Source of the DNA: an uncultured Alphaproteobacteria bacterium
Lineage (GTDB): Bacteria > Pseudomonadota > Alphaproteobacteria > Rhizobiales > Beijerinckiaceae
Direction: 5' to 3'
Assembly (NCBI GenBank): GCA_937871825.1
Contig: CALMOK010000223.1
Span: 1 to 32,379 of the forward strand
DNA: 32,379 nucleotides
Positions within the stretch are counted from its first letter, which is position 1. Every line of letters starts with the position of its first letter. The notes below the pieces were generated by a model. The model saw only the letters and a program-made list of their open reading frames with translations, was not told the origin of the DNA and made no database searches. This document shows, piece after piece, positions 1 through 32,379 of the stretch. The translations under genes and the position numbers were made by a program.

Positions 1-368
1 GTGAATCACGACCTCGCAGGAGCCGGTAGGCCCTTCTTCAACAGCCTGCTAGAGCCAGTGATGGTCAGAGGCTTTCCACACGTCCGTCCGAAGTTCCAAC
101 GCTTCCCTAGTTCACCTTTTTATCAGAACCACTAAATTAAGTCTATTAGTTAACTATAGGGTTTTAAGCCCGGTCACTTCCTATAACCCGCTACTATCGA
201 CCAAAGCGTTTTTCTTTCTGCTTGATCAGAGCATGTTGACGATTCGGGGCCGGACACCCCTGATCGCACATGCGCAATGCTCAGTGTAGATTGGTGAAGG
301 TGTAATTGCTTCCTAATACCGGGTAAGTCCCGTCATCTTTTTCTAAGGGTGACCTTACCCTGCGCCGC
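1..368. other. AT-richer intergenic left edge
   Basis: No gene is recognised here. Frame 1 on the plus strand is open from the window edge to a TAA at 133-135 (44 codons) and could be the last part of a gene cut off by the edge, but the peptide matches no family I know. The stretch from about 110 to 220 is clearly richer in A and T than the rest of the window. A long extragenic palindrome lies at 229-282. A short inverted repeat, GGGTAAG at 321-327 and CTTACCC at 354-360, follows the stop codon of the aldo/keto reductase and might end its transcript, although no T-run follows it. Confidence 0.5.
229..282. repeat. Extragenic palindromic element (REP-like)
   Basis: Nested inverted repeats form one long imperfect stem: GCATGT (231-236) pairs with ACATGC (268-273), and GATTCGGGG (241-249) pairs with CCCCTGATC (257-265) with one mismatch and one wobble around a 7-base loop. 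An outer GAGCAT / ATGCTC pair frames it at 229-234 and 277-282. The wording at its ends and the CCGGACAC core resemble the dispersed extragenic palindromes common in Rhizobiales genomes. That match is from memory of the class, not from a search. Confidence 0.55.
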
Positions 369-1651: not shown

Positions 1652-4279
1652 ATGAACTTCGAGAAATTCACCGAAAGGGCGCGCGGCTTCGTGCAGTCGG
1701 CGCAATCGCTGGCCCTGCGCGAGGGCCACCAGCAATTCACGCCCGAACACGTGCTGAAGGTGCTGCTCGACGACCCCGCCGGGCTGGTCGCCGGGCTCAT
1801 CGACAAGGCGGGCGGCCAGTCCCGCGCCGCGCTGGCGCAGACCGAGCTCGCCCTCGGCAAGCTGCCCAAGGTGCAGGGCTCCGGCGCCGGCCAGGTCTAC
1901 CTCGGCCAAGCGACAGCCCGCGTGTTCGACGGGGCGGAGAAGATCGCTCAAAAGGCGGGCGATAGCTTCGTGACGGTTGAGCGCCTGCTGCTCGCCCTCG
2001 CCTTGGAGAAGGGAACGGACGCCGCCCGCATCCTGGCGGAGGCCGGCGTGACGCCGCAAACCCTCAACGCCGCCATCGAGGACCTGCGCAAGGGCCGCAC
2101 GGCCGACAGCGCTTCGGCCGAAAGCCAATATGACGCGCTGAAGAAATACGCGCGCGACCTCACCGACGCGGCCCGTAACGGCAAGCTCGATCCGGTGATC
2201 GGCCGCGACGAGGAGATCCGCCGCTCCATCCAGGTCCTGTCCCGCCGCACCAAGAACAACCCGGTGCTGATCGGCGAGCCGGGCGTGGGCAAGACCGCGA
2301 TCGCGCTGCGGATCGTCAACGGCGACGTGCCCGAAAGCCTCGCCGACAAGAAGCTGCTCTCGCTCGACATGGGTTCGCTGATCGCGGGCGCGAAATATCG
2401 CGGCGAGTTCGAGGAACGGCTGAAGGCGGTGCTGAACGAGGTGACGGCGGCGAACGGCGGCATCATCCTGTTTATCGACGAGATGCATACGCTGGTGGGG
2501 GCCGGCAAGGGCGAGGGCGCGATGGACGCCTCGAACCTCCTGAAGCCCGCGCTGGCACGGGGCGAGCTGCATTGCATCGGCGCCACCACGCTGGAGGAGT
2601 TCCGCAAGCACGTCGAAAAGGACGCCGCCCTGGCGCGCCGGTTCCAGCCCATCTTCGTGAGCGAGCCGACCGTGGAGGACACGATCTCGATCCTGCGCGG
2701 CCTCAAGGAAAAATACGAGCTGCACCACGGCGTGCGGATCACCGACGGCGCCATCGTGGCGGCCTCGACCCTGTCGAACCGCTACATCGCCGACCGTTTC
2801 CTGCCCGACAAGGCCATCGACCTCGTCGACGAGGCCGCTTCGCGACTGCGCATGCAGGTGGATTCCAAGCCCGAGGAGCTTGACGAACTCGACCGGCGCA
2901 TCATCCAGCTCAAGATCGAGCAGGAAGCGCTCAAGCGGGAAACCGACCCGGCCTCGCGCGACCGGCTTGGCAAGCTGGAAGCGGAACTCGACGACCTGCA
3001 GGAACAGTCCGACGCCCTGACGGTGCGCTGGCGCGCCGAAAAGGACAAGCTCGGCTCGGCCCAGAAGCTCAAGGAGCGGCTGGAGACGGCCCGCAACGAG
3101 CTCAGCCAGGCCCAGCGCAAGGGCGAGTACCAGCGGGCGGGCGAGCTGACCTATGGGGTCATCCCGGACCTCGAGCGGGCGCTCGCCGAGAACGAGGGCA
3201 AGTCGGGCGACCGGCTGGTCGACGAGGCGGTCACGGCCGACCGGGTCGCCCAGGTGGTGTCGCGCTGGACCGGCGTGCCGGTCGACAAGATGCTGCAGGG
3301 CGAGAAGGACAAGCTGCTCAAGATGGAAGAGGCCATCGGCAAGCGGGTGGTGGGGCAGTCCGAGGCCGTCCGGTCGGTGTCGACCGCGGTGCGCCGCGCC
3401 CGCGCCGGGCTGCAGGATCCCAACCGCCCCATCGGCTCGTTCATGTTCCTTGGCCCGACCGGCGTCGGCAAGACCGAGCTGACCAAGGCGCTCGCCAGCT
3501 TCATGTTCGACGACGAAACCGCCATGGTCCGCATCGACATGTCGGAATACATGGAAAAGCACGCGGTTTCGCGGCTGATCGGCGCCCCTCCGGGCTATGT
3601 CGGCTATGAGGAAGGCGGCGCGCTGACCGAGGCGGTGCGGCGCAGGCCCTACCAGGTGGTGCTGTTCGACGAGGTCGAGAAAGCCCATCCAGACGTGTTC
3701 AACGTCCTGTTGCAGGTGCTGGACGACGGGCGGCTGACCGACGGCCAGGGCCGGACGGTGGACTTCCGCAACGTGCTGATCATCATGACGTCGAACCTCG
3801 GTTCGGAATACCTGTCGGCGCAGAAGGCCGGCGACGACGTCGGGCTGGTCCGCGACGAGGTGATGGGGGTGGTGCGCGGCCACTTCCGGCCCGAATTCCT
3901 CAACCGGGTGGACGAGGTCATCCTGTTCCACCGCCTGCGCCGGGAAGACATGGGGGCCATCGTCGACATCCAGCTAGGCCGCCTCGCCAAGCTTCTCGAG
4001 GATCGCAAGATTGCCCTCGACCTCGACGAGCGGGCCCGTGCCTGGCTGGCCGAGAAGGGGTACGACCCGGCCTATGGTGCCCGCCCGCTCAAGCGGACGA
4101 TCCAGAAAGCCGTTCAGGACCCGCTCGCCGAGATGATCCTGTCGGGTACGGTGGGCGACGGCGAAACCATCGAGGTCTCGGCGGGTCCGTTGGGCCTGCT
4201 GTTCAACGGCGAGCCAGACCTCGACATTGAGGCGCAGGACGCCGGCCGCGTGCTGCCTTTCTCGAAGGCGATCAACTGA
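1652..4279 (+). CDS. clpB: ATP-dependent disaggregase ClpB
   Basis: Hexameric AAA+ chaperone that pulls polypeptides out of aggregates together with DnaK/DnaJ/GrpE. At 875 residues it has the normal family length. In order it shows the Clp N-domain repeats (about 1-145), a first AAA+ module with Walker A GEPGVGKT near 207-214 and the Walker B stretch ILFIDEMH, a coiled-coil middle domain (about 400-525) which separates ClpB from ClpA and ClpC, and a second AAA+ module with Walker A GPTGVGKT near 601-608 and [13 protein letters not shown]. The C-terminal D2-small domain is complete. A GGAGG ribosome-binding site at 1640-1644 lies seven bases before the ATG. ClpB is usually heat-induced through sigma-32, but I could not find a convincing sigma-32 promoter in the upstream gap. 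Confidence 0.98.
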
Positions 4280-4284
4280 TCGAA

Positions 4285-4328
4285 CGGCGGGCCGGTCCGA
4301 ACCTCGCGGGGTTCGGGCCGGACCGCCG
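4285..4328. terminator. Bidirectional hairpin terminator between clpB and the LysR gene
   Basis: Nineteen-base arms at 4285-4303 and 4310-4328 pair with one G-A mismatch and one G-U wobble around a six-base loop. The hairpin begins six bases after the clpB stop and lies 26 bases from the stop of the convergent LysR gene. No long T-run follows on either side, so it may act as a GC-rich bidirectional terminator or as an mRNA-stabilising end. Confidence 0.7.
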
Positions 4329-4354
4329 TGTGCTCGACACCTCTGCTCACAACT

Positions 4355-5248
4355 TCAGCGAAGCTCCCGCAACACGTCGATGAAGGCCCGCAAACCGGGC
4401 GGCACATGACGGTGGCCGGGGTAGTAAAGGAAAAGGCCGGGGATGAAGGGGCACCAATCGTCCAGCACGGTGACGAGTTCGCCCCGTTCGAGATAGGGCC
4501 GGGCCGAGCGGTCCGACACATAGGCGATGCCGAGCCCGTCCGCAGCCGCCTCGGTCATCAGTTCGACGTGATCGAGGGTCAGCGCGCCGGGTGGATCGAT
4601 GGTCAGGTCCTGGCCATTCTTTGAGAATTCCCATCGGAAGAGCTTGCCGCTCGGCATGCGGAACCGGATGCAGGCATGGCGGCGCAGGTCGTCCGGCGTT
4701 TGCGGCCGTTCGCGGCCATCGAGGTAGGCCGGGGCGGCGATGGCCACGAAACGCGCCTCCCCGCCGAAGTGCACCGCCACCATGTCGCGGGGCACGGCTT
4801 CGCCCAACCTGACGCCGGCGTCGAAACCTTCCGCCACGATATCGACCAGCCGTCCCTCGGTCACGAGGTCGAGAGACATGCCCGGATGACGGGACAGGAA
4901 GATCGGAACGACTCCTTTAATGAGGACCCGCGCCGCGGTCTCCCCCGCGTTGATCCGCAGGATACCGCGCGGATGGCCGCCGAAGGCCTCAACCTCCTCG
5001 AAGGCGAGATCGAGATCCCGCAGCACGGGCCGCAGGCGTTCGGCAAGGCGCTCCCCGGCCTCCGTCGCCGATACGCTACGGGTCGTCCGATGCAGGAGAC
5101 GCACGCCCATATCGGCTTCCATGGCCCGCATCATGTGACTGAGTGTCGATGGCGACAGCCCCAATTCGTCGGCCGCTTTGCGGAAACTGCGATGCGCCAC
5201 GATGGCCAGGAAGCTGGTTATCTCGACGAGGGTCGGCCTGTTACTCAT
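4355..5248 (-). CDS. LysR-family transcriptional regulator
   Basis: 297 residues, standard for LysR-type regulators. The N-terminal winged helix-turn-helix covers about residues 5-65 (FRKAADELGLSPSTLSHMMR, then VRLLHRTTRSVSATEAGE). The rest is a periplasmic-binding-protein-like effector domain, resembling the AaeR/DsdC-type subgroup common in proteobacteria. It is transcribed away from the SDR oxidoreductase at 5362, with 113 bases between the two starts. This is the usual geometry for a LysR regulator controlling a divergent target and itself, so regulation of the SDR gene is an inference from layout. The effector is unknown. Confidence 0.92.
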   Translation of the reverse strand: MSNRPTLVEITSFLAIVAHRSFRKAADELGLSPSTLSHMMRAMEADMGVRLLHRTTRSVSATEAGERLAERLRPVLRDLDLAFEEVEAFGGHPRGILRINAGETAARVLIKGVVPIFLSRHPGMSLDLVTEGRLVDIVAEGFDAGVRLGEAVPRDMVAVHFGGEARFVAIAAPAYLDGRERPQTPDDLRRHACIRFRMPSGKLFRWEFSKNGQDLTIDPPGALTLDHVELMTEAAADGLGIAYVSDRSARPYLERGELVTVLDDWCPFIPGLFLYYPGHRHVPPGLRAFIDVLRELR

Positions 5249-5361
5249 GGGAGAACTTCACCACCTCGTGCCGAATTGGGCGGATTATACCATGAACGTC
5301 AAGGATTAGCTTCGCTTCAAGATGGGCCGCAACTCCGCGATCCCGTCGCGAGGACCACCCT

Positions 5362-6192
5362 ATGGCTCGAACTTGGTTCATCACTGGCACGTCGTCCGGC
5401 CTCGGTCGCGCGATGACCGAGCAATTACTGGCGCAGGGAGACCGCGTCGCGGCGACACTGCGCAGGACGGACGCCCTTGACGACCTGCAGGCGCGCCACG
5501 GCGACCGCCTCTGGGTGGCGACGCTGGACGTGTGCGACACCCCGGCGGTGCGGGACGTCGTCGACCGTGCTTTCAAAGCGTTGAGCCGCATCGACGTCGT
5601 CGTCAACAATGCGGGCTATGGCCTGACGGGGGCCGCCGAGGAGGTGAGCGACGAGCAGATCCGGCGGCAGATCGACACCAACGTCATCGGCTCGATCCAG
5701 GTCATCCGCGCCGCCCTGCCCCAGTTGCGGGCCCAAGGGGGCGGGCGGATCCTGCAGGTTTCGTCGGAAGGCGGCCAGGTCGCCTATCCAAATTTCAGCC
5801 TCTACCACGCCAGCAAATGGGCGGTCGAAGGTTTCGTCGAATCCGTTGCCCAGGAGGTCGCGCCTTTCGGCATCACGTTCACGATCGTGGAGCCCGGCCC
5901 CGCCCTGACGAGGTTTGGCGAGGGTATCGTCAGCGCGCCGCCGATGGCGATCTACGAGGACACGCCGGCCGGGGAGGTGCGCCGCGCCATCACCAACGGC
6001 CAGTTCCCCATCACGGGCGATGCCGACAAGATGGCGCGGGCCATGATACAATCCGTCGATCGCACCCCCGCGCCCCGGCGGCTGACCCTTGGGGCCGGCG
6101 CTTATGCCAGGGTCCGGGCGGCGCTGGTTGATCGGCTCGCCACCCTCGACAACCAGAAGGAGATCGCACTGTCCACCGAACGGGACCAATGA
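5362..6192 (+). CDS. Short-chain dehydrogenase/reductase (classical SDR)
   Basis: 276-residue Rossmann-fold NAD(P)-dependent oxidoreductase. The cofactor loop TGTSSGLG lies at 8-15, NNAG at 82-85, the catalytic serine at 134/135 (VSSEGG) and the YxxxK pair at Tyr148/Lys152 (YHASK). An arginine pair after the second strand (TLRRTD) favours NADPH. The sequence belongs to the broad group annotated as SDR family oxidoreductase or ketoreductase; the substrate cannot be read from it. Its divergent partner is the LysR regulator at 4355-5248, which probably controls it. It ends 16 bases before the stop of convergent dnaQ. Confidence 0.9.
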   Translation: MARTWFITGTSSGLGRAMTEQLLAQGDRVAATLRRTDALDDLQARHGDRLWVATLDVCDTPAVRDVVDRAFKALSRIDVVVNNAGYGLTGAAEEVSDEQIRRQIDTNVIGSIQVIRAALPQLRAQGGGRILQVSSEGGQVAYPNFSLYHASKWAVEGFVESVAQEVAPFGITFTIVEPGPALTRFGEGIVSAPPMAIYEDTPAGEVRRAITNGQFPITGDADKMARAMIQSVDRTPAPRRLTLGAGAYARVRAALVDRLATLDNQKEIALSTERDQ

Positions 6193-6208
6193 CGCTTAGT
6201 GCAGTGCC

Positions 6209-6925
6209 CTACCGGGCCACGGCCCGCGGTGCGTCGGGGGTGGCCTCGTAGGTCAGCCAGATGGCCCTTTCGCCCAGGCTCGCCACAAAGGCCGCGTGGG
6301 CCGCCCGCTCGGCCTCGGTCACCACCGGCCGCAGGGGGCGCGGGCGGCGCAGCACGGCGGCCTTGGCGTCGCCCCGCAACACCACCACCTCGGCGCTGAG
6401 CCCGAGGGAGGTTTGCCGCCCGCCCGTCAGTTCGGCGTAAACCTCGGCCAGGATCTGCGCGTCGATCAGCGCGCCGTGCTTGGCGCGGCGCGTATTGTCG
6501 ATCCGGTAGCGCTGGCACAGCGCGTCGAGCGAATTGGGCGCGCCGGGGTGCCGGCGCCGCGCCAAGGCCAGCGTGTCGAGCACCATCTCCATGCCGATCG
6601 CGGGCCGCTGAAGGGTCTTCAGCTCCCAATTGATGAACCGCATGTCGAATTCGGCATTGTGGATCACCAGCCGGGCGTCGCGCACGAAATCCAGGAATTC
6701 GTCCGCGACGTGGCCGAACAGGGGATGATCGGCGAGGAATTCGGCCGAAAGCCCATGCACCCGGTAGGCGTCGTCCGGCATGGCGCGTTCGGGGTTGATA
6801 TAGGTGTGGTAGTGCCGGCCCGTCGGGATCGAGTTGATGAGTTCGACGCCGGCGATCTCGACGAGCCTGTCTCCCTTGGCCGGGTCGAGGCCGGTGGTTT
6901 CGGTGTCGAGGACGATCTCACGCAT
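6209..6925 (-). CDS. dnaQ: DNA polymerase III epsilon subunit (3'-5' proofreading exonuclease)
   Basis: 238-residue DEDDh exonuclease. The Exo I motif has Asp7 and Glu9 (VLDTETTGLD), Exo II has Asp94 (HNAEFDMRF), and Exo III has His150 and Asp155 (KHGALIDAQIL). After the catalytic domain (about 1-175) a C-terminal tail would bind the alpha subunit DnaE. It removes misinserted bases in the replisome core. It starts three bases after the coaE stop, so the two are almost certainly co-transcribed and probably translationally coupled. The coaE-dnaQ order is usual in Alphaproteobacteria, though aroE, which often precedes them, is absent here. Confidence 0.95.
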   Translation of the reverse strand: MREIVLDTETTGLDPAKGDRLVEIAGVELINSIPTGRHYHTYINPERAMPDDAYRVHGLSAEFLADHPLFGHVADEFLDFVRDARLVIHNAEFDMRFINWELKTLQRPAIGMEMVLDTLALARRRHPGAPNSLDALCQRYRIDNTRRAKHGALIDAQILAEVYAELTGGRQTSLGLSAEVVVLRGDAKAAVLRRPRPLRPVVTEAERAAHAAFVASLGERAIWLTYEATPDAPRAVAR

Positions 6926-6928
6926 GCA

Positions 6929-7528
6929 CTAGACCCGGTTCGGCGAAGCCTCGCGCAAGCCCGCCAGAACGGCATCGACCTGCCGGCGCGCGGCGTCCAG
7001 CCCTCGCCCGGTGTCGATGACGTGGTCGGCGCGGCGGCGCTTTTCGGCATCGGGCATTTGTTTGGCGAGTATGGCCGAAAACCGGGCTTCCGTCATGCCG
7101 GGGCGGGCAAGGACGCGGGCCTTTTGCACCGTTTCCGGCGCCGAGGCCACCACGACGCGGTCAACCGCCGCTTCGCCGCCCGTCTCGTAAAGGAGCGGCA
7201 CGTCCAGCACCACGACCGGCGTGCCGCTGGCACGGGCCGTCGCCAAAAAGGCCTGCCGGCGGGCCAGCACGAGCGGATGCACGATGCCTTCCAGGCGGCG
7301 CAGCGCCTCGGCCTGTCCGAGCACCCGGGCGGCGAGGGCGTCGCGGTTGATCCGCCCGTTCCGCGTCACGCCGGGAAAGGCGGCTTCCACGGCGGCGACC
7401 GCCTCGCCGCCGTAAAGCTCATGCACCGCCGCGTCCGCGTCGAAAACCGGGACGCCCGCGTCCCGGAACAAGGCGGCGGTGGTGGATTTTCCCATGCCGA
7501 TCGACCCTGTCAGGCCGAGGACGATCAT
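6929..7528 (-). CDS. coaE: Dephospho-CoA kinase
   Basis: 199-residue P-loop kinase that phosphorylates the 3'-hydroxyl of the ribose in dephospho-CoA, the last step of coenzyme A synthesis. The Walker A loop is at residues 8-16 (GSIGMGKST), followed by the family's [10 protein letters not shown] segment; the lid and CoA-binding part contains [11 protein letters not shown] near the C-terminus. It lies 51 bases downstream of fba and three bases upstream of dnaQ on the same strand, so it may be read from the gap-pgk-fba transcript, from its own promoter, or both. Confidence 0.95.
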
Positions 7529-7579
7529 GGCTGCCCAGGCAAGGAAGTCTTGCCCAATGGTGCCAGCGGCAACGAGGCG

Positions 7580-12057: not shown

Positions 12058-12224
12058 TGCTTCGCGGGGCTGCGGGGTGCGTGAGGTATGTATTCCCGGG
12101 GCCTTATCGATTCCAAGGGAGCTGTCCCTGACCTTGTCCGTGGACTTGGTCACATGGCGCCCACCTACGTTGTAGGTTCCCGGGATCGAAGCCCACGGCC
12201 ATTGTGGCTCCGCGCTTTTATATC
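12058..12224 (+). ncRNA. ssrS: 6S RNA
   Basis: About 165 bases between zapA and fau, the usual 6S RNA site. The fold fits: a closing stem GCGGGGC (about 12064) with GCTCCGC (about 12208); a second stem pairing TCCCGGG near 12093 with CCCGGGA near 12180; an internal bubble whose 3' side carries the small hairpin CCTAC-GTT-GTAGG; and a terminal arm made by CCAAG and CTTGG that includes GGGA-GCTG-TCCC. These conserved words match the alphaproteobacterial 6S consensus as I remember it. It binds sigma-70 RNA polymerase and mimics an open promoter in stationary phase. Ends are estimated; a weak promoter (CTGGCA, N17, CTACCT) lies at 12027-12055. Confidence 0.8.
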
Positions 12225-15561: not shown

Positions 15562-17142
15562 ATGACCCAATCCGAGCATGTTCAGGGGAGCGCCGCAGCG
15601 CGCGACCACATCGTCATTTTCGACACCACCCTGCGCGACGGCGAACAATGCCCAGGCGCCACCATGACCTTCGAGGACAAGCTCGGCGTCGCCGCCCTGC
15701 TCGACGAAATGGGGGTCGACGTCATCGAGGCTGGCTTTCCGATCGCCTCCGAGGGGGATTTCGAAGCCGTGTCGGAGATCGCCCGGCGGACGAGCCGCGC
15801 CGTGGTCGCCGGGCTGGCCCGCGCCGTCGAGGGCGACATCGCGCGGGCGGGCGCGGCGGTGCGGCATGCTAGGCGGCCGCGCATCCACACCTTCGTGTCC
15901 ACCTCGCCGATCCATCTCGCCCACCAGATGCGCAAGAGCGAGGAGGACGTGCTGGCCATCATAGCCCGCACGGTGACTCAGGCGCGCGGGCTGGTGGACG
16001 ATGTGGAATGGTCGGCGATGGACGCCACCCGCACCCCGATCGACTACCTGTGCCGCTGCGTCGAAGCCGCCATCCGGGCCGGGGCCACGACGATCAACCT
16101 GCCCGACACGGTGGGCTACGCCCTTCCGGACGAATACCGGGCCATGTTCCGGGCCGTGCGGGAGCGCGTGCCGGAGGCCGACAAGGCCGTGTTCTCCGTT
16201 CATTGCCACAACGACCTCGGGCTGGCCGTCGCCAACACCCTGGCGGGCATCGAGGGCGGCGCCCGGCAGGTGGAATGCACCCTCAACGGCATCGGCGAGC
16301 GGGCTGGCAACGCGGCGCTCGAGGAGGTCGTGATGGCGATCCGCACAAGGGGCGACGCCCTCGCCTTTCGAACCGGCATCGAAAGCACGATGCTGACCCG
16401 CGCCTCCAAGCTGGTGTCGGCCGTCACCTCCTTTCCGGTGCAGTTCAACAAGGCGATCGTGGGCCGCAACGCCTTCGCGCATGAAAGCGGCATCCACCAG
16501 GACGGCATGCTGAAGGACGCCTCGACCTACGAGATCATGACCCCGGCCAGCGTCGGGGTGTCGAAGACCTCGCTGGTCATGGGCAAGCATTCCGGCCGCC
16601 ACGCCTTCAAGGAAAAGCTGCGCGAGATGGGCTACGTGCTGGGCGAGAACGCGCTCGAGGACGCCTTCAAGCGTTTCAAGGACATCGCCGACCGCAAGAA
16701 GACCGTTTACGACGAGGATCTCGCCGCCCTGGTGGACGACCAGATCGGCAGCGCGCACGAGCGCATCAAGCTCGAAGCCCTCACGGTGATCGCCGGCACC
16801 ATGGGGCCGCAATCGGCCACCTTGACGCTGGCCATCGACAACGTCCACACGACCCGGCAGGCGACCGGCAACGGTCCCGTGGACGCCATCCTCAACGCCA
16901 TCCAGGCCATCGTTCCCCACGAGGCGGTTCTCGACCTTTACCACGTGCAGGCCGTGACCGAAGGCACCGACGCCCAGGCGGAGGTGTCGATCCGCCTCGC
17001 CCAGGACGGCCGCTCGATGACCGGCAAGGGCTCCGACCCCGACACGCTCGTAGCGTCCGGCCGCGCCTATATCGCGGCCCTCAACAAACTGATGGCGACG
17101 AGCCGGGGAACCGGTCAACCCGAGGTCCTTCAGGCTGGCTGA
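15562..17142 (+). CDS. leuA: 2-isopropylmalate synthase
   Basis: 526-residue enzyme catalysing the first committed step of leucine synthesis, condensing acetyl-CoA with 2-oxoisovalerate. The TIM-barrel start DTTLRDGEQCPG lies at residues 21-32, with Arg25 and Asp26 as catalytic/metal residues; the metal-binding HCHNDLG is near 213-219; and NAFAHESGIHQDGMLK carries the conserved C-terminal barrel-linker histidines. Residues from about 400 form the regulatory LeuA dimerisation domain, so feedback inhibition by leucine is expected. The length is normal for the short proteobacterial type. It is followed by a hairpin terminator and a tRNA gene. Confidence 0.96.
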   Translation: MTQSEHVQGSAAARDHIVIFDTTLRDGEQCPGATMTFEDKLGVAALLDEMGVDVIEAGFPIASEGDFEAVSEIARRTSRAVVAGLARAVEGDIARAGAAVRHARRPRIHTFVSTSPIHLAHQMRKSEEDVLAIIARTVTQARGLVDDVEWSAMDATRTPIDYLCRCVEAAIRAGATTINLPDTVGYALPDEYRAMFRAVRERVPEADKAVFSVHCHNDLGLAVANTLAGIEGGARQVECTLNGIGERAGNAALEEVVMAIRTRGDALAFRTGIESTMLTRASKLVSAVTSFPVQFNKAIVGRNAFAHESGIHQDGMLKDASTYEIMTPASVGVSKTSLVMGKHSGRHAFKEKLREMGYVLGENALEDAFKRFKDIADRKKTVYDEDLAALVDDQIGSAHERIKLEALTVIAGTMGPQSATLTLAIDNVHTTRQATGNGPVDAILNAIQAIVPHEAVLDLYHVQAVTEGTDAQAEVSIRLAQDGRSMTGKGSDPDTLVASGRAYIAALNKLMATSRGTGQPEVLQAG

Positions 17143-17148
17143 AGGCCC

Positions 17149-17172
17149 ACCTCCGCCCACCACGGCGGAGGT
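17149..17172 (+). terminator. Hairpin terminator after leuA
   Basis: ACCTCCGCC (17149-17157) and GGCGGAGGT (17164-17172) form a perfect nine-base stem with a six-base loop, seven bases after the leuA stop. The following bases CATTCCCAT are only weakly T-rich. Confidence 0.7.
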
Positions 17173-17260
17173 CATTCCCATACCTCACGCCTGAAAGCCG
17201 CTGGACAGGCCAGATGGCGTTTGCTACAGGGCGGTTCCGGCGGCGACGCCCGGTTGTGAT

Positions 17261-17336
<76 letters not shown>

Positions 17337-17796
17337 TCACAGTCAATGACTTGGCGGAAAGCCGAAAGATAACGATGGGACGTGGGAGGGTTTGCGATTG
17401 TCGCGGACCCACATGCGCGTTGTGTTCTTCTTAGTCGCGCGTCGCGCCTGAACGGCCTCTTCTTCAATCCATGTGATCAGCCCCTTGCTGGCGTTGTTGG
17501 CCAACTCTGAGTGCTGGCCAGATTATGACGCAGCCTTTACTGAACCAGTTGCGTGGATGGCCGGTGATGCCGCCGATTTCCGGTGTGATGCGCCGGCGCT
17601 ACGACGGGATGATCATCCTGTTCCGAGCCACGATAGCGGTGTCCAATCGAATACAACGGTGAAATTGCGGGCAGACTCGCGATGTCGCGAGACTTTCAAA
17701 CAATTTGTCAAGACTCGCCAAGCACACTCGGCTCAGGTGAAGGGCTCGAACGGCTTGGTTCATCTCACGTCGATCTTGCCAGGCTTGTGGACCACC
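17337..17796. other. Intergenic region before the TadG-like gene
   Basis: 460 bases with no convincing gene. The frame of the TadG-like gene stays open back to an ATG at 17473, but the 108 extra residues lack recognisable homology and have no ribosome-binding site, so I treat them as non-coding. A palindrome, CTCGCGA-TG-TCGCGAG, lies at 17676-17691, about 105 bases before the gene, and may be an operator. A slightly AT-richer stretch follows it (about 17690-17730). Confidence 0.5.
17676..17691. promoter_or_regulatory. Palindrome upstream of the TadG-like gene
   Basis: Perfect 7-base arms CTCGCGA and TCGCGAG separated by TG. Its length and symmetry suit a dimeric DNA-binding protein. It is followed by TTTCAAACAATTTGTCAAG, the most AT-rich stretch in the region, where a promoter could lie. 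No specific regulator is recognised. Confidence 0.35.
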
Positions 17797-19170
17797 ATGC
17801 CAACTCCTCGACCGATGCTTGGCTTACCGGAACGGTTCTCGTCAGACAGATCAGGCAACGTGGCGGTCGTATTCGCACTTTGCCTGCTTCCGATGCTTGG
17901 ATTGATTGGATATGCAGCCGACTTTTCGATTGGCTTGATGGCCAAGCGCAAGCTCGACGCCGCCGCCGATGCCGCCGTGTTGAATGCCGTGTCGAAATCG
18001 GCCAATCCAAAACTCGACCAACCGACCCAGGCTCAAGCGCTCGCAAGCTTCAACGCGGCCCTCGGGAAGGCCTCAAACGTCACGGTAAAGGACGTTCATC
18101 TCGATTCGACCTTCGTTGACGGATCCATCAAGGTCAGCCTGACCTATCAAGCCAGCACGGCGACCATGTTTGGATCGTTGTTCAACGTCGACACGATCAG
18201 TCTGACGGGAAAGTCGGCCAGCATCGCCCCCTTGCCGCCCTATGCGAACTTCTACCTGCTTCTTGATAATTCCCCATCGATGGGGCTGGGCGCGACCACC
18301 GCCGACATCGCGAAACTACAAACATTAACGCAGAACCGCTGCGCTTTCGCTTGTCACCAGCATGCCTTCAACAACGGCATCGTTGGCGACGACATGAATG
18401 ACAACTATCACATCGCGAAGAACAACAATGTCGTCACCAGGATCGATGTGGAAAGGACCGCATCGCAGCATTTGTTCGACAATGCGATCAAGTTCGATCA
18501 GGTTGCTGGACGCTACAGTGCGGCCATCTATACGTTCAGTGATGTTCTCCAGCTCGTTTCACCGCTGTCGTCCGATCTGGCAGGCGTTCAGAACAAGGCG
18601 GCGGCGATCGATCTTGCTTACGCTTATCACAGTCAGAGCAACATCCAGACATCCTACGACACGGCGTTCAGCTACATGACCGACATCGTGGGAAGGGGGG
18701 GCGATGGGAGTTCCGCGACGTCGCCGATCAAATACCTGTTCGTCGTCACCGATGGCGTACAGGACCAACCAACCGCCGGGGGTTCGGGGTCAGGGGACAG
18801 GGCGGACCATTGGGCGCCACCCAATGACAACATCACTTCACCGCCGAGCGACGCGAAACCCAATATCGCGAATACTCTGAAGGGCAACGTGAATCCACAA
18901 CGGCTCATCTCGCCCATCAAACCCTCAATCTGCGACAATTTAAAAAACAACAACGTGCGGATCGCCATCCTTCACACGACCTACATCCCTGTCGATGACG
19001 GCCTGTACACGAACTATATCCAGCCTATCGCCAACGACATACCGAACAACCTCAAGAGCTGCGCGTCGCCCAATCTGTTCTTCACGGTGACGCCGTCGGC
19101 AGGGATCGACGCGGCGATGCAGTCGATGTTCTACGCCACGACTTTCGGGATGCCTCGCCTGACCCAGTGA
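17797..19170 (+). CDS. TadE/TadG-like membrane protein with von Willebrand A domain
   Basis: 457 residues from the ATG at 17797 (MPTPRPMLGLPERF). The N-terminus has the TadG-type signature: SSDRSGNVAVVFALCLLP runs into a single transmembrane helix (about 21-40), followed by a Lys/Arg-Lys stretch and DAAADAAVLNAV. From about residue 148, NFYLLLDNSPSMG gives a DxSxS metal-site motif of a von Willebrand A domain, continuing to YLFVVTDGVQD with the second metal-binding Asp. Relatives are anchored pseudopilin-like or surface proteins of Flp/Tad secretion. No other tad gene is nearby, so it is an orphan copy, common in Rhizobiales. Asn and Lys are more frequent than in its neighbours. Confidence 0.8.
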   Translation: MPTPRPMLGLPERFSSDRSGNVAVVFALCLLPMLGLIGYAADFSIGLMAKRKLDAAADAAVLNAVSKSANPKLDQPTQAQALASFNAALGKASNVTVKDVHLDSTFVDGSIKVSLTYQASTATMFGSLFNVDTISLTGKSASIAPLPPYANFYLLLDNSPSMGLGATTADIAKLQTLTQNRCAFACHQHAFNNGIVGDDMNDNYHIAKNNNVVTRIDVERTASQHLFDNAIKFDQVAGRYSAAIYTFSDVLQLVSPLSSDLAGVQNKAAAIDLAYAYHSQSNIQTSYDTAFSYMTDIVGRGGDGSSATSPIKYLFVVTDGVQDQPTAGGSGSGDRADHWAPPNDNITSPPSDAKPNIANTLKGNVNPQRLISPIKPSICDNLKNNNVRIAILHTTYIPVDDGLYTNYIQPIANDIPNNLKSCASPNLFFTVTPSAGIDAAMQSMFYATTFGMPRLTQ

Positions 19171-19987: not shown

Positions 19988-19996
19988 CCACAGACG

Positions 19997-20080
19997 AAAA
20001 AGGCCGCCGCGTGTTGCCACGGGCGGCCCAAGTCTAGGGAGGAAACGCCCAAAGAAGGGCATGCACCGCCGAAGCGGCGC
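19997..20080 (-). ncRNA. mmgR: mmgR/suhB-family small RNA (alpha-r8 type)
   Basis: On the minus strand this reads as a compact sRNA of about 84 bases. It has a 5' hairpin CGCCG-CTT-CGGCG; a second hairpin GCCC-TTCTTT-GGGC; a single-stranded stretch GTTTCCTCCCTAGACTT carrying an anti-Shine-Dalgarno CCTCCC; then a canonical terminator in which GGGCCGCC and GGCGGCC enclose CGTG-GCAA-CACG, followed by TTTTT at 19997-20001. The size and the GGGCGTTTCCTCCCT core match the suhB/mmgR family conserved in Alphaproteobacteria, as I remember it. In Sinorhizobium mmgR limits polyhydroxybutyrate storage. A possible promoter (CTGAAC, N16, TATTCG) lies just upstream. The exact 5' end is estimated. Confidence 0.75.
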
Positions 20081-30928: not shown

Positions 30929-30991
30929 AGCTGTTTAGTCAAGTTTTCGGTGAGTTGTTGCCGGAGGCTTCTTAAAAGGGAGTATAGTTCC

Positions 30992-31450
30992 TTGCGTCAA
31001 GTCATCAAACGCGGTGTGCCCGCAGTTGCCCTGGTGGCATCGATCCTTGCCTTCGCACCGGTCGCGCCGGCTTTCGCGGTTCCGATGGATGCATCGGTTG
31101 GTGCGGGATCGGATAACGTGATCCAGGCCCAATTCGGTGGTGGACGGCGCTTCCACGGTGGTGGCGGGTACCGTCGGGGCTATGTGGGGTACCGCCATCG
31201 CGGGTTTGGCGGAGCGGCGGTCGGTGCCGGGATCGCCGGGCTGGCGGCGGGGGCCATCATCGGTGGCGCCATCGCGAATTCCCAGCCGGCTTATGGGTAT
31301 CCGGTCGATGTCGATGAAGACGCCGCCCCGGTTTATGCCGACCCGGCGGGCGGCGACCAGACAGCCTACTGCCAAAGCCGGTTCAGGTCCTACGACGTCG
31401 AAAGCGGCACCTACCTGGGATTTGACGGATTGCGCCACCCCTGCCCTTGA
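30992..31450 (+). CDS. BA14K-family exported protein
   Basis: 152 residues from a TTG at 30992, chosen because AAAGGGAG (30975-30982) lies nine bases upstream and because it places a clean signal peptide at the start: RQVIKRGVPAVALVASILAFAPVAPAFA. The mature part is Gly/Arg/Tyr-rich with a glycine-zipper helix AAVGAGIAGLAAGAIIGGAIA (about 84-104), and ends in YCQSRFRSYDVESGTYLGFDG, the BA14K repeat first described for a Brucella immunogenic protein with lectin-like activity. It is followed by a strong terminator. An upstream ATG at 30950 would add 14 residues before the signal peptide and is less likely. Confidence 0.88.
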   Translation: MRQVIKRGVPAVALVASILAFAPVAPAFAVPMDASVGAGSDNVIQAQFGGGRRFHGGGGYRRGYVGYRHRGFGGAAVGAGIAGLAAGAIIGGAIANSQPAYGYPVDVDEDAAPVYADPAGGDQTAYCQSRFRSYDVESGTYLGFDGLRHPCP

Positions 31451-31565: not shown

Positions 31566-32379
31566 TTACGCGTTGCTCCGAACGCGCTGTTCGATCCACT
31601 CATATGTCCGTTCCAAGCCCGTCGTCAGGGCTGCCGATGGAGCCCAGCCAAGCTTCTCGCGGATCAACACGTTGTCGGAGTTCCGGCCGCGAACTCCTGT
31701 GGGTCCCGGAATGTGCTTGGCGGTGAGTTTTTTGCCGCCGATGTCGCAAACCAAATCAACGAGCTGGTTGATGGTGACCATCTCGTCAGACCCGATATTG
31801 ACCGGACCTTCGAAACCCGAACGCGTCAGCCGGGTCGTCCCTTCCAGGCATTCGTCGATGTAAAGAAAGGAGCGCGTCTGCTTTCCGTCGCCCCAAACCT
31901 CGATTTCACCACCATCCTTCGCCATCGCCACCTTACGGCAAACGGCGGCAGGGGCCTTTTCCTTGCCGCCCTGCCATGTGCCTTCGGGTCCGAAAATGTT
32001 GTGAAAGCGAGCAACGCGGCATCGCATGCCATAGTTGCGGTTGAAGGCGAGATAGAGACGTTCGCTGAACAGTTTTTCCCAGCCATACTCGCTGTCCGGA
32101 TTAGCAGGGTAAGCTGAGTCCTCGCGACAGTTCGGATTGTTGGGATCCATCTGGTTATGTTCGGGATACATGCAGGCCGACGATGAATAGAACACCGTGC
32201 TGATCGTCCGCTTCCGCAACGCGTCGACCATGTTGAGGTTGATGAGCGCAGAATTGTGCATCACGTCCGCATCATGCTCGCCGGTGAAGATGTATCCAGC
32301 GCCTCCCATGTCGGCCGCGAGTTGGTAAACCTCATCAAAGCGTCGGTCCACGATGGCACGGCAAAAATCCGCATCGCGA
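31566..32379 (-). CDS. GDP-mannose 3,5-epimerase, N-terminus cut off by the window edge
   Basis: The frame is open from the right edge to the TAA at 31566 (270 codons); about the first 70-100 residues, including the Rossmann loop, lie outside. It is an extended SDR that closely follows the plant GDP-mannose 3,5-epimerase (GME): QLAADMGGAGYIF, SSSACMYPE (catalytic Cys), SEYGWEKLFSE (Tyr and Lys of YxxxK), RFHNIFGPEGTWQGGKEKAPAA (catalytic Lys), GDGKQTRSFLYIDEC, VNIGSDEMV and GPTGVRGRNSDN. The enzyme makes GDP-L-galactose and GDP-L-gulose. In bacteria this most likely feeds a surface polysaccharide; the unseen neighbours to the right would decide. Its GC content is lower than the housekeeping genes, consistent with a mobile polysaccharide cluster. 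Confidence 0.9.
   Translation of the reverse strand, partial: RDADFCRAIVDRRFDEVYQLAADMGGAGYIFTGEHDADVMHNSALINLNMVDALRKRTISTVFYSSSACMYPEHNQMDPNNPNCREDSAYPANPDSEYGWEKLFSERLYLAFNRNYGMRCRVARFHNIFGPEGTWQGGKEKAPAAVCRKVAMAKDGGEIEVWGDGKQTRSFLYIDECLEGTTRLTRSGFEGPVNIGSDEMVTINQLVDLVCDIGGKKLTAKHIPGPTGVRGRNSDNVLIREKLGWAPSAALTTGLERTYEWIEQRVRSNA

Follow-up and report, generated by a model that had tools for sequence, protein, structure and literature searches.

A predicted bacterial GDP-mannose 3,5-epimerase from an uncultured alphaproteobacterium and its probable link to polysaccharide synthesis

GDP-mannose 3,5-epimerases (GMEs) have been described as enzymes that use NAD+ to oxidize C4, exchange the protons at C5 and C3 through a cysteine and a lysine, and reduce C4 again (PMC8787198). 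They mainly yield GDP-L-galactose, while GDP-L-gulose and GDP-D-altrose arise as by-products, and in plants they serve the synthesis of vitamin C and polysaccharides (PMC8787198). GDP-L-fucose synthase (Fcl, also GMER) shares the SDR fold and the cysteine acid and is likewise a 3,5-epimerase, but it has a histidine as the base and a lysine where GMEs have lysine and arginine; the two enzymes are told apart by these positions, K217 and R306 (PMC8787198). The closest described bacterial system is GM35E of Methylacidiphilum fumariolicum, which was shown to be a GME in 2019 and for which a role in LPS was proposed (PMC6678494). According to that report the enzyme is 50.5% identical to the Arabidopsis protein and has a kcat/KM of 2.04 per s per mM, and UniProt held 18 bacterial sequences annotated as GME at the time of the study (PMC6678494). 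In cyanophage S-SCSM1, ORF123 is described as a GME encoded beside GMD and Fcl (PMC9602691). Literature searches returned no characterized member of the bacterial clade treated below (clade A), GM35E being known here by its description alone. Among the titles retrieved on L-galactose in rhizobial or other alphaproteobacterial polysaccharides none concerned a GME, which is not proof of absence.

The sequence analyzed here (the window) has a length of 32,379 nucleotides and comprises the entire contig CALMOK010000223.1 (C223) of an uncultured Beijerinckiaceae bacterium, whose genome of 3.8 Mb consists of 338 contigs with a completeness of 96.46% and an estimated contamination of 2.47%. A placement of the host in the Alphaproteobacteria is supported by G149, a genome of the same class, whose relative of the protein analyzed here is identical to the one from Nisaea nitritireducens (Thalassobaculaceae, an alphaproteobacterial family). 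A gme fragment encoding the C-terminal part of the protein is located at the right edge (31566..32379, minus strand). Its frame (31566-32378) holds 270 codons and is still open where the contig ends; the stop codon occupies 31566-31568 and base 32379 is the final base of the preceding codon. The lower GC content noticed at this edge was borne out with 0.572 for gme versus 0.660 for positions 1-31500, although 25 of the 614 segments of 814 bases outside gme reach values as low, and the GC content of gme is therefore low but not unique. To the left, a BA14K-family protein is encoded convergently (30950..31450, plus strand; PF07886, 3e-13), accompanied by an L,D-transpeptidase-domain protein and a response regulator. 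The BA14K-family neighbor probably lies outside the sugar locus.

The predicted protein was compared with all PDB chains using phmmer. Arabidopsis GME (2c59) was the top match (E 6e-91, 307.9 bits), and the highest ranks were taken by five distinct plant GME sequences (E 6e-91 to 1.2e-88), followed by GDP-L-fucose synthase as the next family (E 7.6e-21). An AlphaFold2 model of the truncated fragment, calculated from the window protein together with 26 of the 80 clade A relatives (27 rows in total; mean pLDDT 74.4), gave a consistent result in Foldseek, with plant GME chains on ranks 1-14 (TMq 0.73-0.81) and all non-GME entries following from E 2.9e-16 on. In both sequence and fold the best PDB matches are thus plant GMEs with 45-53% identity, far above GDP-fucose synthase and UDP-glucose 4-epimerase, and the fragment model adopts an extended SDR fold that is closest to solved GMEs. 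The model is poor at residues 15-33, which overlap a loop insert described below, and for this reason nothing was read from it on the pocket.

Each of the six residues to which a catalytic role has been assigned is retained. Arabidopsis S143, C145, Y174, K178, K217 and R306 correspond to S67, C69, Y98, K102, K141 and R232 of the fragment; the indices of chain 2c59 are the published numbers plus 2 and were matched via the K178R, Y174F and K217A chains. The Ser...YxxxK triad is complete with S67 (codon at 32178..32180, minus strand, as are all following positions) and the YGWEK motif harboring Y98 and K102 (32073..32087). The cysteine acid C69 is encoded at 32172..32174 and the lysine base K141, the equivalent of the residue exchanged in the K217A chain 2c5e, at 31956..31958. 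The arginine partner R232, whose role is described in PMC6678494, lies within the segment GVRGRNSDN (residues 228-236; 31671..31697). When 87 clade A rows were aligned with 21 rows of a second bacterial group (clade B), two plant sequences and E. coli Fcl, these six residues made up at least 98% of the letters in clade A and at least 95% in clade B, were present in both plants, and fell among 71 columns that are nearly constant across GMEs. The proposal that the gene encodes a GME in which the catalytic Cys and Lys and the GVRGRNSDN segment are retained thus agrees with the sequence, residue and fold tests alike. GM35E, as far as the published description allows a comparison, resembles the window protein in being a bacterial GME with a GxxGxxG motif and the Cys/Lys/Arg set, and a role in LPS was proposed for it (PMC6678494). 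The window protein shares the fold, the six catalytic residues and GVRGRNSDN with the plant enzymes of Arabidopsis (2c54/2c59/2c5a/2c5e) and Myrciaria dubia (8sg0/8skb), the Arabidopsis chain being 53% identical over the fragment.

Annotations of some relatives would instead make the protein a GDP-L-fucose synthase or a UDP-sugar 4-epimerase. The window protein passes no NCBIfam model and its best match there is indeed the GDP-L-fucose synthase model NF047922, and several phage relatives are labeled UDP-glucose 4-epimerase. The NF047922 score is 96.7 bits against a cut-off of 500, however, and although the window protein is truncated, an Fcl on contig C3 of the same genome that is truncated too still reaches 353.4 bits. 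In addition, the window protein has Lys at the base position and Arg at the Cys-tuning position, where E. coli Fcl has His and Lys (C, H, K for acid, base and partner); identity to this Fcl is about 23%. The neighborhoods of clade A relatives bear on this reading in both directions, as fcl-like genes occur within 10 kb of gme in 14/80 loci and gmd in 6/80, but the fcl-like gene in those 14 loci is a separate one. The genome analyzed here also has its own gmd on C3 with a C-terminal GDP-L-fucose synthase beside it. GDP-fucose synthase and UDP-sugar epimerase were therefore rejected on residues and scores, and such an identity is highly improbable.

A search of the whole genome yielded one ManC above cut-off (contig C50, 605.9 bits) and one GMD above cut-off (C3, 618.7 bits). 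The GDP-L-fucose synthase adjoining GMD scores over model positions 98-304 of 308, and its frame is interrupted near a run of unknown bases. The presence of ManC, GMD and this partial GDP-L-fucose synthase indicates that GDP-mannose can be made by the organism and GDP-L-fucose probably too. Beside GMD, C3 also encodes a protein of 1403 residues (L171:1454-5665) in which two stretches match family 2 glycosyltransferases and one matches group 1; it is one of two very long glycosyltransferase proteins noticed in the genome, the other having 1690 residues (C39).

To find the missing N-terminus, residues 1-80 of the relative from Bradyrhizobium cytisi (82% identical) served as the query in a search of the same genome. 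The N-terminal part of this query matched contig C39 at positions 10-114 (minus strand, 91% identity) and its final part matched the window edge, whereas the next match had an E value of only 7e-4. The end of C39 encodes the N-terminal 39 codons MKTALVCGAGGFIGGHLVKRLKREGFWVRGADLKIHEHA, including the cofactor motif GAGGFIG. Measured against the B. cytisi relative, 12 residues (about 35 bases) would be missing between C39 and C223 and the full protein would have about 321 residues; many relatives are 322-330 residues long. We infer that the two contigs are neighbors from the complementary parts of one gene and from their similar GC content (0.582 for the 8461 bases of C39), not from reads. Given this join, the GxxGxxG NAD-binding motif of gme is intact. 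Loss of the N-terminal cofactor site, which the sequence-only reading had named as evidence against its assignment, therefore did not come true.

The relationship to plant GMEs was analyzed by identity and phylogeny. The window protein is 68-83% identical to members of clade A, 47-55% to clade B and plants and at most 30% to the other SDR proteins in the set; at 53%, Arabidopsis GME is no closer to it than clade B is. In a thinned tree of 57 rows (34 from clade A, 21 from clade B and two plants, without outgroup, drawn from a quick tree of 107 rows), which is unrooted and whose bootstrap had not settled, all clade A rows are located on one side of a branch with a support of 100/99 and both plant sequences on the other. 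The clade B branch has a support of 92/73. The 107-row tree reproduced this split, though weakly supported (50 and 73), and had very long outgroup branches. The window protein thus belongs to a bacterial GME clade and not to the plant lineage, and in the unrooted tree the two plant sequences do not form a group with it that leaves out the bacterial GMEs. The term "plant-like" used in the sequence-only reading does not hold as a statement of kinship. A recent transfer from plants to bacteria was considered as well and rejected, as neither plant sequence falls within the clade and the two are no more similar to the window protein than clade B is.

A few genomes carry more than one copy. The alphaproteobacterial genome G265 harbors both a clade A copy (71% identical to that of the window) and a clade B copy (52%; L102, L120), and G213 and G303, likewise alphaproteobacterial, each contain two copies from clade B. 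L089 is titled as a Klebsiella pneumoniae metagenome-assembled genome; in the quick tree its GME clustered with rows from Chromatiales and Desulfobacteraceae, and the thinned tree placed it at another position inside clade A. Either the title of this record or the binning could be in error.

Twenty-two alignment columns, two of which are inserts, distinguish clade A from both clade B and plants. The loop TGEHDADVMHNS (32250..32285, minus strand) is typical of clade A and two residues longer than in plants, and Ala takes the place of the plant Met in AADMGGxG. A GME from a bacterium, for which a role in LPS was suggested, has already been published (PMC6678494); the clade with the loop insert and the Met-to-Ala substitution is less known. 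Because both differences from the plant enzymes lie close to catalytic residues, the substrate or the main product could differ. An enzyme of the same fold and chemistry might yield mainly GDP-L-gulose or GDP-D-altrose, or act on another GDP-hexose. This would be in line with the split from the two plants, the altered loop and motif and the 22 distinguishing columns, as well as with the three products reported for GME and the published question whether single 3- or 5-epimerases exist (PMC8787198). The retention of all six catalytic residues and the occurrence of ManC, the enzyme providing GDP-mannose, within 10 kb in 22/80 relatives argue against it, and we regard a different substrate or main product as unlikely. 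It is also rather doubtful that clade A as a whole, in Alphaproteobacteria, scattered other phyla and cyanophages, represents a separate subfamily with a reshaped sugar pocket that, instead of GDP-L-galactose, mainly produces GDP-L-gulose, GDP-D-altrose or the epimer of another GDP-sugar. If its product did differ, these bacteria and phages would bear a surface sugar not yet described there.

A scan of genome contigs yielded at least 585 stretches coding for a relative at E <= 1e-3, and some of these relatives may not be GMEs. The 80 best are 71-83% identical to the window protein; 57 are labeled Alphaproteobacteria, and the others Nitrospirota, Thermodesulfobacteriota, Planctomycetota and more. 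That GMEs are uncommon in bacteria was supported by genome counts (own genome excluded). A relative at E <= 1e-40 was present in 20/288 other Alphaproteobacteria genomes and 12/396 other Pseudomonadota genomes, numbers that could be slightly low since the best 8 and 6 candidates per genome, respectively, were scored. At E <= 1e-30, 5/59 near-relative genomes carried one. The results add a well-supported branch of bacterial GMEs that is widespread at low frequency and linked to polysaccharide loci, and whose members are often labeled UDP-glucose 4-epimerase or generic epimerase in records.

Relatives also occur in phages. Of 50,697 phage records, 37 contained one at E <= 1e-40 (28 of them with 60-80% identity), and by name all are cyanophages or marine viruses. 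The 20 records listed of these 37 are labeled UDP-glucose 4-epimerase or generic epimerase/dehydratase, or bear no label. The T4-like cyanophages S-SSM7 (L165:3794-4849) and S-SCSM2R (L166:3836-4882) encode proteins with AADMGGAG, the longer clade A loop and the catalytic motifs, but these are phage genes annotated as UDP-glucose 4-epimerase and nucleoside-diphosphate-sugar epimerase. Variants were found in two motifs, namely GSAC instead of SSAC in S-SCSM2R and DGREKAP instead of GGxEKAP in a relative from Thalassobaculum; the catalytic residues are thus kept in both proteins.

The gene neighborhoods of the relatives were analyzed for glycosyltransferases, Wzx, Wzz and polyprenyl-phosphate sugar transferases up to 10 kb from gme. 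The 80 loci correspond to the best 80 of the at least 585 stretches, ten of them from Nitrobacteraceae, and 20 stretches of 20 kb from six GME-carrying genomes served as controls. At least one of the scored polysaccharide genes was found in 60/80 clade A loci versus 2/20 controls (Fisher p 1.2e-7) and ManC in 22/80 versus 0/20 (p 0.0055), p values that are indicative since the loci are mutually related, and counts that come from profiles built from neighbors of the same 80 loci, which favors these loci over the controls. In regions outside the profile building, one of which (L126) shares its species with locus L048, polysaccharide genes occurred in 4/6 clade A and 11/14 clade B regions and ManC in 0/6 and 4/14. 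When a single locus per named family was retained (n=25), the counts were 19/25 for polysaccharide genes and 6/25 for ManC, and among the 54 loci of at least 19.5 kb they were 47/54 and 18/54. Twenty of the 80 clade A loci contain none of the scored polysaccharide families; eight of these are shorter than 10 kb and twelve longer. A relative on a Thalassobaculum plasmid (63.7% identical) is located between a tyrosine autokinase and a glycosyltransferase, and the same 12.7 kb are annotated with a polyprenyl glycosylphosphotransferase, an O-antigen ligase-family protein and an export protein. In G001, a genome of the same genus as the one analyzed here, a gme with 73% identity has a Wzz-like gene as well as WecG-like and family 4 glycosyltransferases in its vicinity.

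On C39, a putative capsular polysaccharide synthesis protein (NKWYS; PF10364, 5e-12) is encoded upstream of gme on the same strand. It is followed on the opposite strand by an FkbM methyltransferase (PF05050, 1.1e-19), the 1690-residue protein with a family 2 glycosyltransferase domain (2457-7529, L099; PF00535, 5.1e-7) and a protein of 232 residues without a Pfam match. Relatives of the N-terminal 430 residues of the long glycosyltransferase were found near gme in 4/80 clade A loci. The sugar locus thus seems to continue rightward onto C39. The expectation of a polysaccharide cluster on this side was borne out in part, namely by the NKWYS protein, the FkbM methyltransferase and the long glycosyltransferase, while the anticipated Wzx, Wzy and GDP-mannose synthesis genes are absent from the four complete frames of this contig, whose 8461 bases stop short of covering the entire locus.

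The gene is best explained as encoding a bacterial GME that would produce mainly GDP-L-galactose, most likely for a surface or exported polysaccharide, with a probability of roughly 0.8. This reading draws on sequence evidence, namely the family assignment, the full set of catalytic residues, the cofactor motif on C39, ManC, and the polysaccharide-type genes on C39 and beside relatives. In the proposed mechanism, a tightly bound NAD+ would oxidize C4 of GDP-mannose with the aid of Tyr, Lys and Ser, the Cys/Lys pair, tuned by Arg, would swap protons at C5 and C3, and C4 would be reduced again; GDP-L-galactose would be the main product and GDP-L-gulose and GDP-D-altrose the by-products. GDP-L-galactose would then be a donor for glycosyltransferases building a cell-surface or exported polysaccharide, encoded by a low-GC stretch that presumably starts at gme and continues on C39. 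The epimerase might instead serve a small molecule or glycoprotein, such as an antibiotic or another conjugate, for which the bleomycin gene blmG and the A201A pathway are cited as examples (PMC6678494). The FkbM methyltransferase and the 1690-residue glycosyltransferase on C39, whose four complete frames include neither a polymerase nor a flippase, would suit such a function. However, the NKWYS capsular-synthesis protein adjoins gme if the contigs are joined as proposed, and many relatives are located beside Wzz, Wzx and polyprenyl-phosphate sugar transferases, which makes this alternative improbable compared with a role in polysaccharide synthesis. If the predicted GME is active, L-galactose (or L-gulose) would be expected in alphaproteobacterial glycans, and clade A would offer enzymologists more bacterial sources of GDP-L-sugars.

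Some further features were observed in the window. A second dip in GC content occurs at positions 17001-19000 (0.596 and 0.557 per kb versus about 0.66) and includes a tRNA gene (17261-17333), a type of site where mobile DNA may insert. Two small RNAs met the gathering threshold, a 6S RNA at 12064-12214 on the plus strand and an RNA of the suhB/mmgR type at 19989-20067 on the minus strand.
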